From Rickettsiales bacterium (GTDB lineage: Bacteria > Pseudomonadota > Alphaproteobacteria > Rs-D84): a stretch of DNA of 35,639 bases. Under the pieces are notes generated by a model. It saw nothing but the letters and a program-made list of their open reading frames with translations. It made no database searches and had not been told where the DNA came from. The position numbers and the translations under genes are program-made. This document shows positions 11,963-32,067 of the stretch, piece after piece (the stretch's first letter is position 1; each line of letters begins with the position of its first letter). The stretch covers positions 1 to 35,639 of the forward strand of contig JAISAB010000011.1 in NCBI GenBank assembly GCA_031266915.1. Reading direction: 5' to 3'.

Positions 11963-11991
11963 TTGACTAGTGTTGGTTTTGTTCTTAGAAT
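11963..11991 (+). promoter_or_regulatory. Promoter of leader RNA 1
   Basis: TTGACT (11963-11968), 17 bases, TAGAAT (11986-11991), with a start near 11998, just before the first conserved hairpin. Confidence 0.7.
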
Positions 11992-11997
11992 CTGCAA

Positions 11998-12284
11998 TGA
12001 ATCCAAAGGGATTTGGGTTCGGGGCCTTCAAAAAGCCCACGTTAAAGCAATGCGAATCTTCGTGTTGTTATCCGCCTGATGGAACTGCGGCGCGGAAAGC
12101 GCCTTTTGTTTTATCGGGAACACCCCGCTTTTAGGCCGGGGAGCCGCCGGTTATACAACAGTCCGGGCACTGCTTGCGGTGCTGGACAAAGACCGGCGGG
12201 GTCATACTTTAACGTGATTTTTTGAACTCCCCGACCGCCAAATTCTTTTGGCGGTTTCTTTTTGCACAAAACGGGGGCTTTGCA
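11998..12284 (+). ncRNA. Structured 5' leader RNA, copy 1 (candidate riboswitch-like element)
   Basis: Hairpins in order: GAATCC/GGGTTC (11999-12004 with 12015-12020), then GGGC-CTTCAAAAA-GCCC (12022-12038). Later come CCCCG/CGGGG (about 12123-12141) and a P1 helix CCGCCGGT/ACCGGCGG (12144-12151 with 12192-12199). A pseudoknot pairs loop TTCAAAAA (12027-12034) with TTTTTGAA (12219-12226). The anti-SD strand CCCCG (12229-12233) can pair either with CGGGG at 12197-12201, partly inside P1, or with CGGGG of the ribosome site (12272-12276). Between them is a terminator-like hairpin, ACCGCCAAA/TTTGGCGGT (12234-12255). Copy 2 (17483-17765) keeps all these elements with compensatory changes. The ligand or signal is unknown. 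Confidence 0.8.
12234..12263 (+). terminator. Terminator-like hairpin inside leader 1
   Basis: A perfect 9-bp stem with a 4-base loop is followed by a U-rich stretch (TTTCTTTTTG). It lies between the anti-SD strand and the ribosome site of the 12285 gene, so it could act as a transcriptional attenuator. Confidence 0.75.
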
Positions 12285-12995
12285 ATGAGTTTAAGATTTA
12301 TGAATTTAAAGAATGTGATTCCGGCGGTGATAATCGCGGTAATTTGCGCGGGCGTTCCCGGGCCGTCTTTCGGAGATAATTGGTCGCCGTTTACAACGCT
12401 TTGCGGCGGACAATTAGTCCACAATGGCTCGGGCAGTTGTTATTCATGTGGAACAAATGTTTGCTCATCGTGTTCCAGCGCTTCAGCGAATTGTACCAGC
12501 TGCACTACTACCAATTCAGGCGGCAGCATGGGCGTCAGCTTATATTATTATTTCACATGTCAAAACGGCTTCTGGAGTCCTGTTGACAATAGCGCGTCAG
12601 GATCTTCATCCTGCAGTGGGACGGAAACTTGCGATTGCAATCTCTACGACCCCGACGACGACAGCGTAAGCGGTTATGGAACCGGCACGGTTTCGAAAAC
12701 AGGCACTTTGCCGAACTGCAGTTTCGATTGCTCTACAGTCCAAACATGCAAATGGAATAGTTGCATCAGCGGATATTACCCTTACGGAGCCAGTTCTTAT
12801 ATGCCCGAGGGTTGCAAGAAATGCCCGAATTATTCGACCGACTGGACGTCGAACGGCGGCACAGTGAAAAGCGAATATAGTCATAACAACGGTTATTACA
12901 TCGGCATAGCTTCCTGCTATGTCAGTGGAAATTTCTCAGACACGACCGGGAATTTCACGATAAGCGGAACCAGCTGCACTTATTCTTCCAATTAA
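12285..12995 (+). CDS. Secreted cysteine-rich protein A, 236 residues
   Basis: I start at ATG 12285, seven bases after GGGGG. The N-terminus MSLRFMNLKNVIPAVIIAVI with cleavage near PSFG-D is a Sec signal peptide. The mature part is rich in Cys, Ser, Thr and Tyr, with many CxxC or near-CxxC pairs (CSSCSSASANCTSC, CKKCP). It ends in a module GNFSDTTGNFTISGTSC that resembles GTYTDDTGTYDLSGTC of the 17766 product, as does a shared GYY...C..CP block. It is probably an exported, disulphide-bonded surface or extracellular protein; function unknown. Expression is likely controlled by the structured leader upstream. A long hairpin follows the stop. Confidence 0.82.
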   Translation: MSLRFMNLKNVIPAVIIAVICAGVPGPSFGDNWSPFTTLCGGQLVHNGSGSCYSCGTNVCSSCSSASANCTSCTTTNSGGSMGVSLYYYFTCQNGFWSPVDNSASGSSSCSGTETCDCNLYDPDDDSVSGYGTGTVSKTGTLPNCSFDCSTVQTCKWNSCISGYYPYGASSYMPEGCKKCPNYSTDWTSNGGTVKSEYSHNNGYYIGIASCYVSGNFSDTTGNFTISGTSCTYSSN

Positions 12996-17193: not shown

Positions 17194-17447
17194 AAAATTC
17201 CCGCTTGGACCACCCACGAAAATCCGGCTGGTTTTCGCGGGGCCCGGTGGCGGGAATCCCTTGTATGTATTATTTTTGGCTCAACTGACAGAAAAATATC
17301 TTTTTCAAACAAATCTTTGCAATAGCTGTGTCATCCCGTGGCTTGACCACGGGATGACACAGCAAGGAATAACGAGTTCTTTGCATGTCAATCGGGCGAA
17401 GATTGAACAAATCTTAAATCCATAAATCTGAAATCTTAAATTCTATG
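17194..17447. repeat. Spacer with two palindromic repeats
   Basis: There is no gene. The first palindrome is 'attcccgc...gcgggaat' (about 17197-17258). The second is a 17-bp perfect inverted repeat, GCTGTGTCATCCCGTGG / CCACGGGATGACACAGC (17325-17341 with 17347-17363). This type is common in Rickettsiales-like genomes and also occurs at 21136-21188. The right end carries 'aatcttaaatccataaatctgaaatcttaaatt' quasi-tandem repeats (17408-17443). Confidence 0.75.
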
Positions 17448-17476
17448 TTGATTTCTGTCTAAACGTTTTGTATACT
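17448..17476 (+). promoter_or_regulatory. Promoter of leader RNA 2
   Basis: TTGATT (17448-17453), 17 bases, TATACT (17471-17476), with a start near 17483, at the same position relative to the first hairpin as in leader 1. Confidence 0.75.
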
Positions 17477-17482
17477 CAATGA

Positions 17483-17765
17483 CGAATCCATAGGGAATGG
17501 GTTCGGGTCCTTCAAAAAGACCATATAATCGGCAGCAATGTAAAAATTGCTGCAATCCCGCACAGCAACAGCGGGCTTTATGCCCGATTTTTGTTGCATC
17601 CCCGCTTGGTCGGGGGGCTGTTGGTTATAAAATAGTCTCGGCTGCGCTTGCGCGGACGAGTCGAAGACCAACGGGGTCATTCGATTATATGATTTTTTGA
17701 ACCTCCCGACCGCCAATTTCCCTTGGCGGTTTTTTGATTCTATACAAAAAAAAGGGAGATATAAG
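17483..17765 (+). ncRNA. Structured 5' leader RNA, copy 2
   Basis: It is homologous to 11998-12284. Hairpin A is GAATCC/GGGTTC (17484-17489 with 17499-17504). Hairpin B is GGTC-CTTCAAAAA-GACC (17506-17522), where GGGC/GCCC of copy 1 has become GGTC/GACC. P1 is CTGTTGGT/ACCAACGG (17618-17625 with 17667-17674), replacing CCGCCGGT/ACCGGCGG. The pseudoknot pairs TTCAAAAA (17511-17518) with TTTTTGAA (17694-17701). The anti-SD strand CTCCC (17703-17707) pairs perfectly with the ribosome site GGGAG (17754-17758) or, overlapping, TCCCG with CGGGG at 17672-17676. The 3' block TGATTTTTTGAAC is identical in both copies. It lies directly upstream of the secreted protein at 17766. Confidence 0.82.
17709..17736 (+). 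terminator. Terminator-like hairpin inside leader 2
   Basis: ACCGCCAA-tttccc-TTGGCGGT followed by TTTTT. It occupies the same position as in leader 1, between the anti-SD strand and the ribosome site. Confidence 0.8.
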
Positions 17766-18278
17766 ATGAAAAAAATCATCGCGGCATTGATGCTGACGCT
17801 GCTTGTCGCAACAGATTTGATGGCCGACACAGCCTATGTTGGTACGGTTGACACTATTTGCTATACAGGCCCATCTTACGGAGATTATCGCGAGCTAAAC
17901 ACTGCGTACGATTATGTGAATATTACCTACACTCGGTCCGATGGAAATCATTTTTTTACCTGCACTATCAATAGCTATGCCTGCAGACCAGACAAAAGCT
18001 ACTCAAGTGATGGCTGCACAGATTGTCCAACGGGCTCGGTTGCCACTCCTACCGGAAAAGGCTATAATTCCACCATCGACCCGATTTGCAGATACTGCAT
18101 TATGGGATATTACCGGGACGTCGTCCTTGGTGCGTGCGTGGCATGTCCGTACGGCGGAACTTCCAGTAATCGTCCGGAAGACAATTCCAACATAATCGCG
18201 TGTTCTCAAGAAGCCGGCACATACACCGACGACACGGGAACCTATGACCTAAGCGGCACATGCAATTACGAAGAATAG
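17766..18278 (+). CDS. Secreted cysteine-rich protein B, 170 residues
   Basis: The ATG at 17766 follows GGGAG by seven bases. The signal peptide MKKIIAALMLTLLVATDLMA is cut before DTAYVG. The mature part has many cysteines, arranged as ACRPDKSYSSDGCTDCPTG, CRYCIMGYY and CVACPYGGTSS, similar to TNFR/EGF-like 'CxxCPxG' modules. The end GTYTDDTGTYDLSGTCNY matches the C-terminal module of protein A (12285). It is most likely an exported disulphide-rich surface protein. Leader RNA 2 ends at its start codon, so the gene appears to be under the same control as protein A. Confidence 0.82.
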   Translation: MKKIIAALMLTLLVATDLMADTAYVGTVDTICYTGPSYGDYRELNTAYDYVNITYTRSDGNHFFTCTINSYACRPDKSYSSDGCTDCPTGSVATPTGKGYNSTIDPICRYCIMGYYRDVVLGACVACPYGGTSSNRPEDNSNIIACSQEAGTYTDDTGTYDLSGTCNYEE

Positions 18279-20343: not shown

Positions 20344-20372
20344 TTGCAAAATGCGCGGCGGTCGGATATAAT
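20344..20372 (+). promoter_or_regulatory. Promoter of leader RNA 3
   Basis: TTGCAA (20344-20349), 17 bases, TATAAT (20367-20372). It is identical in both boxes and spacer length to the promoter at 2576-2604, with a start near 20379. Confidence 0.85.
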
Positions 20373-20378
20373 TTCTTT

Positions 20379-20569
20379 GTCGCAGGGTGTTCCTGCGGCG
20401 GGGCGTAGAAACCCTTTCTTTAGCGTCGATAAAGACGAAAAAACTCCAACCGTTGGTTGGAGGACTCCCGAATATATCGAATAGGGCGTGCAATTCTAAA
20501 GATTGTTTCTAACCTCCAACCACCACATTCGTCGGTGGTTTTTTACTTGCCGAAAAATGGAGGTCTTGA
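20379..20569 (+). ncRNA. Structured 5' leader RNA, copy 3 (diverged)
   Basis: The primary sequence is unlike copies 1 and 2, but the order of elements is the same. Hairpin A is CGCAGG-gtgtt-CCTGCG (20381-20397). Hairpin B is a GGG/CCC stem with loop CGTAGAAA (20401-20414), whose TAGAAA (20406-20411) pairs with TTTCTA (20506-20511). The P1-like hairpin CTCCAACC-gtt-GGTTGGAG spans 20444-20462. The anti-SD strand ACCTCC (20512-20517) pairs perfectly with the ribosome site GGAGGT (20559-20564). GGTTGGAGG (20455-20463) can instead pair with CCTCCAACC (20513-20521), breaking both the SD-blocking helix and the terminator stem. This gives two clear, mutually exclusive states. Confidence 0.8.
20518..20545 (+). 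terminator. Terminator-like hairpin inside leader 3
   Basis: AACCACC-(9-base loop)-GGTGGTT followed by a U run (20539-20544). The 5' arm overlaps the strand that can pair with GGTTGGAGG, so an antiterminator form exists. Confidence 0.8.
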
Positions 20570-21103
20570 ATGAAAAAATCAACCATAATAGCTTTACTTG
20601 TCTGGGCGGTTGTATTCCAAGGCGTTTTTGCAGATGTAGTTACAGTTTCAGATATTACCGGAAGTTATGAAACTGATGGTTTTGAGATTTCGACCCCGGA
20701 AACCGACTACGAAAATGGCATATATACGACTTATAATACCGGGGCGCAATACTTGTCCTCTAAATACTATAAAGGTCAGATTGTTGATATTTATACTTAT
20801 TACTTATATGCTGATATAAACGATTATCTTATTCAAAGCGTATGCGCTTCTGGAGGTGGCGATTATGCCGAGTGGAGTTGTGATGTTCCAAGGACTAATC
20901 TTGATAATAATCCTAGTGATGACGAAATATATTGCTATTGCCGTTTGAAGAGAATAAGTGATAATGTTAGCTCTGTCGGTTGGGTCTTCTTCGCGGGCAA
21001 CACGGTCGACTATTGCGCGAGGCTCTGCGCGCATGATTGCGCGTACTACGTCAGCGAGCAGCCCGACTTCGTGTCTGCGTTATTAGCACCATTCGAACCC
21101 TAA
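20570..21103 (+). CDS. Secreted cysteine-rich protein C, 177 residues
   Basis: The signal peptide MKKSTIIALLVWAVVFQGVFA is cut before DVVTVS. The ribosome site GGAGGT lies five bases before the ATG. The mature protein is Tyr-, Asp- and Ser-rich in its first half. The second half carries CYCRLKRIS, GWVFFAGNTVDYCARLCAHDCAYYV and ends SALLAPFEP. The same pattern (CxCR, WV, DC..xC, CA..C, SAL(F/L)A.P) is found in the product at 34920-35417, so these two form one family of exported Cys-rich proteins. It lies on the plus strand between terminase and portal genes and was evidently inserted into the phage cluster together with its leader. Confidence 0.82.
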   Translation: MKKSTIIALLVWAVVFQGVFADVVTVSDITGSYETDGFEISTPETDYENGIYTTYNTGAQYLSSKYYKGQIVDIYTYYLYADINDYLIQSVCASGGGDYAEWSCDVPRTNLDNNPSDDEIYCYCRLKRISDNVSSVGWVFFAGNTVDYCARLCAHDCAYYVSEQPDFVSALLAPFEP

Positions 21104-21132: not shown

Positions 21133-21191
21133 GTTACCCCTAGCAGTGTCATCCCGGGGCTTGACCCAGGGATGACACTGCTAGGGGTGAC
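21133..21191. terminator. Long palindromic repeat, bidirectional terminator
   Basis: A perfect 20-bp inverted repeat (21136-21155 with 21169-21188), extendable to 23 pairs with one wobble, around a 13-base loop. It contains the GTCATCCC/GGGATGAC core shared with 17325-17363. It lies between the convergent secreted protein gene and terminase C-part. Confidence 0.8.
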
Positions 21192-21237
21192 GACAAGAGG
21201 GAATAATGTCGAAAAAGGTACATTCATATCACTTGGT

Positions 21238-31716: not shown

Positions 31717-31740
31717 CATAAATCCACTGACGCAGATTTA

Positions 31741-32067
31741 TTATTTTTTCTTTGCAACTTTTTTCGCGGCAGGTTTTTTCGCAACCGCTTTTTTTGCAAC
31801 AGGCTTTTTAACCGCGGCCTTTTTCACAACCGGCTTCGCAGCAGGTTTTTTCGCAACCGCTTTTTTCGCCGCTGGCTTCTTTACCGCCGGTTTTTTAACA
31901 GCTGGCTTTTTGACGGCCGTTTTTTTCGCCGCTGGTTTCTTTACTGCCGGTTTCGCGGCAACCTTCTTAACAGCAGGTTTAGCAGCTGGTTTTACGGCAG
32001 CTTTTTTCGCGGCCGGCTTTTTTGCAGCTGGTTTCTTCGCAGCTGGCTTTAAGAATGTAAATGCCAT
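31741..32067 (-). CDS. Histone H1-like Ala/Lys/Pro-rich protein
   Basis: Except for MAFTFLKP, the 108-residue product is made of AAKKPA / AVKKPA-type repeats: almost only Ala, Lys, Pro and Val, ending KKVAKKK. Such strongly basic tails bind DNA non-specifically, like histone H1 C-termini and bacterial AlgP or HctB/Hc2-type proteins. It has its own promoter (32123-32151), an AAGGAG ribosome site and its own terminator, so it is a separate, probably highly expressed transcription unit inside the phage cluster. It may be a host nucleoid protein or serve to condense packaged DNA; the location favours but does not prove the second. Confidence 0.85.
   Translation of the reverse strand: MAFTFLKPAAKKPAAKKPAAKKAAVKPAAKPAVKKVAAKPAVKKPAAKKTAVKKPAVKKPAVKKPAAKKAVAKKPAAKPVVKKAAVKKPVAKKAVAKKPAAKKVAKKK

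Follow-up and report, generated by a model that had tools for sequence, protein, structure and literature searches.

The window analysed here is a stretch of 35,639 nucleotides from a Rickettsiales bacterium of the class Alphaproteobacteria. It contains three plus-strand genes encoding proteins with signal-peptide-like starts, each preceded by a structured RNA leader (Table 1). In leaders 1 and 2, a promoter is followed by a 5' hairpin, a hairpin P2 that displays the segment a1, the adjoining segment b1, the strand a, and a 3' domain containing b, P7, b', a' and d, the last of which overlaps an intrinsic terminator. Leader 3 was found to consist of the same elements in compact form, with its a1 and b1 complementary to a' (20505-20511) and b' (20496-20502). 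The sequence features reported in the original prediction were all confirmed, among them 17-spaced promoters before leaders 1 and 2 and a secreted Cys-rich protein downstream of each. The distance from the -10 element to the 5' hairpin is 8-9 nt in 19 of 20 aligned copies of the leader. A Pfam search with the proteins of genes 1, 2 and 3 gave no family (for gene 2, no significant match).

The leaders had been drawn from 11998 to 12284 and from 17483 to 17765, as far as the start codons. These regions are structured leaders, but the RNAs end at terminators that the prediction did not name, about 20-30 nt 5' of the start codon. A TTG within a' of leaders 1 and 2 (12222 and 17697) starts a reading frame that continues across the terminator and joins the secreted-protein gene in frame. 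Its use as a start was judged incidental, because most copies contain an ATG and an SD sequence 3' of the terminator.

Table 1. Positions of the leader elements and downstream genes in the window.
Feature	Position	Strand	Remark
Promoter of leader 1, TTGACT-17-TAGAAT	11963..11991	+	
Leader 1, whole	11999-12263	+	
5' hairpin of leader 1, GAAUCC../..GGGUUC	11999..12020	+	
P2 hairpin of leader 1, GGGC/GCCC, displaying a1 (UUCAAAAA, 12027-12034)	12022..12038	+	stem and loop covary between copies
b1 of leader 1 (CACGUUAAAG), partner of b'	12038..12047	+	exact 10-nt complement of 12207-12216; copy-specific (76 copies)
a strand of leader 1, CCCCG	12123..12127	+	pairs with b, competes with d; a/b hairpin in nearly all copies
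sRNA-Xcc1/C4-like domain of leader 1	12134..12244	+	RF02221 36.2 bits; R1 132.8 bits
Elements of the leader 1 domain	b 12134-12143; P7 12144-12151/12192-12199; b' 12207-12216; a' 12219-12226; d 12227-12236		
Intrinsic terminator of leader 1, GACCGCCAAA..UUUUGGCGGUUUC and U-run	12233..12263	+	stem covaries (helix 4)
Gene 1, 236 aa, signal-peptide-like start, 8.5% Cys	12285..12995	+	SD CGGGGG at 12272-12277
Promoter of leader 2, TTGATT-17-TATACT	17448..17476	+	
Leader 2, whole	17484..17735	+	R1 129.2 bits; fold z -6.23
5' part of leader 2	5' hairpin 17484-17504; P2 (GGTC/GACC) 17506-17522; a1 17511-17518; b1 17522-17531		
3' part of leader 2	a 17600-17604; b 17608-17617; b' 17682-17691; a' 17694-17701; d 17702-17711; terminator 17708-17735		
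Gene 2, 170 aa, signal-peptide-like start, 6.5% Cys	17766..18278	+	SD GGGAG at 17754-17758
Promoter-like site of leader 3, TTGCAA-17-TATAAT	20344..20372	+	sequence reading
P2 hairpin of leader 3 with a1 (UAGAAAC, 20406-20412) and b1 (UCUUUAG, 20417-20423)	20400..20423	+	
a strand of leader 3	20444-20451	+	
Compact sRNA-Xcc1/C4-like domain and terminator of leader 3	20455..20545	+	R1 30.3 bits, E 6e-4; E 1.2e-4 with filters off
Gene 3, 177 aa, signal-peptide-like start, 4% Cys	20570..21103	+	

Covariation, distribution and downstream genes

The genome containing the window (1,091,825 bases in 26 contigs) was searched, and leader 1 together with model hits revealed about 32 copies of the leader in its 1.09 Mb, three of them in the window; 20 full copies were aligned. 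A covariance model of the 3' domain, designated R1, was built from bacterial copies only. Six copies that a MAFFT alignment of this domain had shifted by one column in b/d were left out of R1, and the model search recovered them. R1 realigned 82 hits, of which 76 distinct rows were used for covariation. In this alignment, paired cells amount to 97.0%, and 25 of the 26 pairs in the model have two-sided changes. The covariation score of 0.378 falls to 0.169 with shuffled partners and does not exceed 0.127 with slid ones. Each of the outer stem b/d, P7, P7.1 and the terminator stem is supported by covariation. The fold z-scores against shuffled sequence were -8.45 for leader 1 and -6.23 for leader 2.

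The compensatory changes first seen between leaders 1 and 2 hold in the larger set. Hairpin B of the original prediction, here P2, pairs as GGGC/GCCC or GGTC/GACC, with GGAC/GTCC and GGGA/TCCC in further copies, and the helix then called P1, here P7, pairs as CCGCCGGT/ACCGGCGG or CTGTTGGT/ACCAACGG. The a/b hairpin likewise varies in sequence between copies, with its pairing kept. The covariance-model search for homologues returned many further copies, with strong covariation. With covariation, mutually exclusive pairings and an own promoter confirmed, the leaders constitute a real family of structured regulatory RNAs, and one larger than originally described.

Of 190 genomes of the same order, 172 contain copies detected by R1 (up to at least 18 in one genome), as do 13 of 190 genomes sampled across the class, where families outside the order contain 1-6 copies. 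Among records that contain the core motif, those with names are gut and termite metagenome-assembled genomes labelled Alphaproteobacteria, Proteobacteria or Rickettsiales, and they include Candidatus Enterousia intestinigallinarum.

An open reading frame with an SD sequence is located within 90 nt in 59 of the 76 distinct copies. Its start codon typically lies 18-32 nt after the U-run, so that most copies have no room for another promoter. By a simple rule, 38 of these 59 frames have a signal-peptide-like start. The downstream genes include those for Cys-rich secreted proteins (6-12% Cys) and, as read from their N-termini, for GT2-type glycosyltransferases and Stealth-type capsule proteins; no common metabolic pathway connects them. 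Autotransporter-like proteins are mostly encoded about 100 nt downstream of leader copies. In some copies of the Ca. Enterousia type (L038, L061, L187, L197, L206, L208, L211 and L215), a promoter-like site follows the leader, and the autotransporter-like gene about 100 nt downstream has the conserved start MS.YKHLADLLKICSVLPALAIMPAMA; attenuation need not apply to these copies. XRE-type regulators were observed after two copies (L032 and L042) and could be remnants of phage-type use.

Copy-specific pairing and alternative folds

The original prediction paired a loop, TTCAAAAA, with a tail, TTTTTGAA, as an 8-bp pseudoknot. The complementarity is present in both leaders (12027-12034/12219-12226 and 17511-17518/17694-17701), but it is one half of a bipartite pairing and is nested in the minimum-energy fold. 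The tail UUUUUGAA is a', which pairs with a1 in the P2 loop, and the two sides change together in other copies (TAAGAAA/TTTCTTA, TTAGAAAA/TTTTCTAA and TGATAA/TTATCA). The other half, absent from the prediction, is formed by b1, just 3' of P2, and b', the loop of the hairpin before a' (CACGTTAAAG/CTTTAACGTG in leader 1 and CATATAATCG/CGATTATATG in leader 2); the match usually extends over 7-12 nt. This pairing was found to be specific to each copy. The b' segment matches the 5' region of its own leader over a mean of 8.5 bases and those of other copies over 5.6 (0 of 5000 permutations), with a match of at least 7 in 87% and 16% of cases, respectively; for a', the means are 7.2 and 5.6 (0 of 5000 permutations). 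The pairing segments are the most variable parts of the leader, a pattern that an antisense code specific to each copy would produce and a ligand pocket common to all would not.

In the minimum-energy folds of 20 out of 20 copies, a1b1 is joined to b'a' in a single long nested duplex that excludes b/d; the pairing is a pseudoknot only with P2 closed. On paper, the leader RNA would therefore be bistable, adopting either this duplex with the a/b hairpin or a C4-like fold in which b/d is paired and a1 is displayed in P2. The two folds differ by a mean of 15 kcal/mol, a value from RNAfold, which scores no pseudoknots, so that their relative stability is uncertain.

An "SD helix" between the d strand and the SD sequence had also been predicted. 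This pairing can form, and the complementarity of d and SD (4.55 versus 4.22) argues for it weakly; the difference is small, and shared descent could explain it. The SD is GGGG or GGGA in 15 of 19 leader genes, compared with 3 among the 28 remaining genes of the window (Fisher p 3e-6). Such a bias would fit pairing with CUCCCC of d but is no proof of it, given that common descent of leader and SD would produce the same bias.

Relation to sRNA-Xcc1, C4 and IsrK

At the gathering threshold, an Rfam search of the window returned two tRNAs only; the link to sRNA-Xcc1 (RF02221) was seen only at an E-value threshold. In a search with a 401-base stretch, leader 1 matched RF02221 from end to end (model positions 1-87; 36.2 bits, E 7.9e-5), and most other copies also gave end-to-end matches, at 30-46 bits and mostly below threshold. 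The gathering score of 53 bits is missed by the copies of the own genome, the best of which reaches 46.0 bits, and is exceeded by the leader of one relative (G007/L028; 58 bits). RF02221 matches number 17 in the own genome and were found in 27 of 40 relatives. The copies listed match the full-length, three-helix RF02221 structure, and R1 reciprocally finds the phage copies.

In Xanthomonas, sRNA-Xcc1 is a discrete 88-nt RNA demonstrated by Northern analysis and RACE (PMC2996969), and it is also known as an integron-cassette sRNA upstream of symE (PMC12444791). It shares with the leaders the outer stem b/d, a hairpin with an AUA.AA/GAA internal loop, a second hairpin and the single-stranded a'. 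The RF02221 model covers 87 nt only, without the 5' half and without the long-range pairings. Phage members of the family, like the leaders, have a P2 hairpin upstream that contains a1, and their b1 pairs with b'. The bacterial leaders differ from those members in an added terminator and in the absence of the start-codon target of b'; a terminator-like stem follows d in 89% of bacterial copies versus 7% of phage copies (p 1e-26). There is a solid case that the 3' domain is a divergent sRNA-Xcc1, and we hold the family relation of the leaders to be very probable. The original prediction of an undescribed class therefore does not stand for the 3' domain, for which it had named a match to an existing Rfam family as the contrary outcome. 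It does stand for the 5' half, the double pairing and the added terminator, which are new here, as is the expansion before host surface genes.

The antirepressor genes of phages trigger lysis. Phage and plasmid records were searched with the RF02221 consensus, and seven neighbourhoods, whose RNAs score 65-86 bits, were read. An annotated antirepressor-type gene lies directly downstream in five of the seven: ant (Aaphi23 and Rac-SA53), KilA-N, AntB (phage P27) and BRO. The remaining two precede an unnamed protein (Moraxella phage Mcat15) or lie in an Aeromonas stretch without annotated genes. In viral contigs, the RF02221 core was found in at least 120 stretches. Among the matches listed from phages, plasmids and viral contigs, including IMG/VR (L048-L054 and L065-L184), the 80 downstream proteins contain KilA-N (16), AntA (13), pRha (12), P22_AR_N (10), Bro-N (10) and ORF6N (9), where one protein may match several families. 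For 72 distinct loci among the matches listed, nearly all from viral contigs, b'/a' (P8/a') is complementary to the start of its own gene over at least 7 nt in 94%, versus 15% with exchanged partners; for its own upstream region, the figures are 92% and 32% (0 of 5000 permutations in both tests). A literature search for sRNA-Xcc1 together with antirepressor found no paper linking the two. The phage RF02221 RNAs, laid out like C4, probably work like C4.

The c4 RNA, on which the heteroimmunity of phages P1 and P7 is based, pairs around the ribosome-binding site of ant and so silences this gene (PMC12197685). Rfam models C4 (RF01695) and c4-a1b1 (RF03163) match the c4 region of phage P1, where the order of elements is that of the leaders: a1/b1, two hairpins enclosed by an outer stem, the second with b' in its loop, then a' as a single strand, and a gene on the same strand. 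The partners of b' and a' of C4 in P1 are a2/b2, where the following frame begins. Like C4, the leaders contain a'/b' in an outer-stem module with a1/b1 upstream, but they lack b2, the complementarity of b' to the downstream ribosome-binding region that is found in the phage RF02221 RNAs. RF01695 did not match leader 1 or L001-L008, and in phages carrying both RF01695 and RF02221 it marks another locus. The leaders are C4-like in layout; membership in RF01695 is not claimed.

RNase P processes the C4 precursor of P1 and P7. An RCC within 3 nt after d is present in 80% of bacterial versus 44% of phage copies, which is compatible with processing by RNase P but no proof of it. A further system for comparison is IsrK (RF01394) of the Salmonella prophage Gifsy-1, a terminated leader whose short form regulates the read-through form (PMC4825925). 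IsrK resembles the leaders in being a terminated leader RNA upstream of a gene; it differs in acting on orf45/anrP, in activating, and in that its model lies upstream of the C4-like domain, the isrK match adjoining the C4 match.

Possible mode of action

We consider it rather probable that the leaders represent a phage C4-type immunity RNA module turned into multi-copy, cis-acting and individually coded attenuators, in which case the bacterial leaders would descend from phage RNAs. Action in cis is the likeliest mode, and cis attenuation as such is about as likely as not. Transcription would start just 5' of the 5' hairpin. The leader carries the targets a1 and b1, after which the C4-like domain supplies the complementary b' in a hairpin loop and a' as a single strand. 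The intrinsic terminator follows, and the secreted or surface gene typically begins 18-32 nt further on. The phage b' and a' can base-pair with the antirepressor mRNA around its ribosome-binding site; in the bacterial copies, the start-codon target of b' has gone, and the copy-specific pairing with the own a1/b1 is kept. The leader would then toggle between the long a1b1/b'a' duplex with the a/b hairpin and the C4 fold with b/d paired, and this balance may set terminator read-through and/or SD release, the gene being expressed by read-through. It counts against attenuation that neither fold prevents formation of the terminator stem, and reading the alignment by eye revealed no conserved antiterminator against the CCGCCAA arm.

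Possibly, the released leader works in trans, on the locus it comes from and no other. IsrK, from the same type of phage locus, offers a precedent, as its terminated form regulates the read-through form. A tentative extension is that the leaders make up an orthogonal set, in which each of about 32 mostly surface genes has its own code and the released leader acts on its own locus only. Were this so, many surface proteins could be turned on and off independently without DNA rearrangement, a way of varying the cell surface, perhaps as a defence against phages or host immunity.

It is doubtful that the copies are instead standalone sRNA genes, with the terminated 220-265-nt RNA as a trans-acting product and the downstream gene expressed by leakage. 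Nearly every copy has a promoter and a terminator, sRNA-Xcc1 of Xanthomonas is a discrete RNA (PMC2996969), and IsrK, which is encoded at a locus of this kind, regulates its own read-through transcript in trans (PMC4825925). However, the fixed 18-32-nt spacing to a start codon and SD in most copies and the narrow class of downstream genes argue for cis control, and the start codons contain no b' target.

The ligand-sensing leader of the original prediction, which would make this a new riboswitch class with the internal loop UAUAAAACAG / CGAAGA as pocket and the pairings as expression platform, now appears improbable. The internal loop is conserved, alternative pairings, a terminator and an SD are close by, and the many copies precede genes of related types. 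The same domain with the corresponding internal loop nevertheless stands before phage antirepressor genes, antisense to their starts; the 5' and 3' segments vary in a matched manner in each copy, which a common ligand does not require; and the downstream genes (secreted proteins, glycosyltransferases, capsule proteins and two XRE regulators) share no pathway. No Rfam riboswitch model matched the leaders, and their architecture is that of a phage antirepressor antisense RNA of the C4 kind, not of a metabolite aptamer.

Equally improbable is that the phage mechanism is retained, with b'/a' silencing the downstream gene as antisense to its ribosome-binding site: the complementarity is clear in phages, and bacterial a' plus b' show a slight excess at their own start region (20 of 5000 permutations), as does d to a small extent, but in 69 bacterial copies b' matches its own gene start region at chance (4.62 nt, versus 4.59 nt for other copies; 2186 of 5000 permutations as high), with the long match to b1 kept. 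A copy-specific SD-antisense role of bacterial b' was rejected on this ground. AntA and KilA-N were searched for in the own genome and neither was found, so that, as far as these two families tell, the leaders are not the antirepressor control of a resident phage.

The leaders are a regulatory RNA of phage kind, tens of copies of which precede surface genes of the host, and their variable, self-matching code could make each copy individually addressable. The family connects sRNA-Xcc1 with the C4 immunity RNAs of phages, with the control of phage antirepressors and with the surface proteins of an order of uncultured gut Alphaproteobacteria (Ca. Enterousia and relatives), subjects apparently unlinked in the literature searched. 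For sRNA-Xcc1, it offers a testable role, as an antisense silencer of antirepressor-type genes, and the missing 5' half.

Repeats were also observed elsewhere in the window. Two similar palindromes at 17323-17375 and 21141-21193 (83%; GTGTCATCCCG..CGGGATGACAC) resemble dispersed palindromic elements of Alphaproteobacteria. A direct repeat of 83 nt at 186-268 and 512-594 is 98% identical, its copies being 326 bases apart, and the 15-bp repeats at 31733-32067, in a gene on the minus strand, resemble a Lys/Ala-rich, histone H1-like coding repeat.
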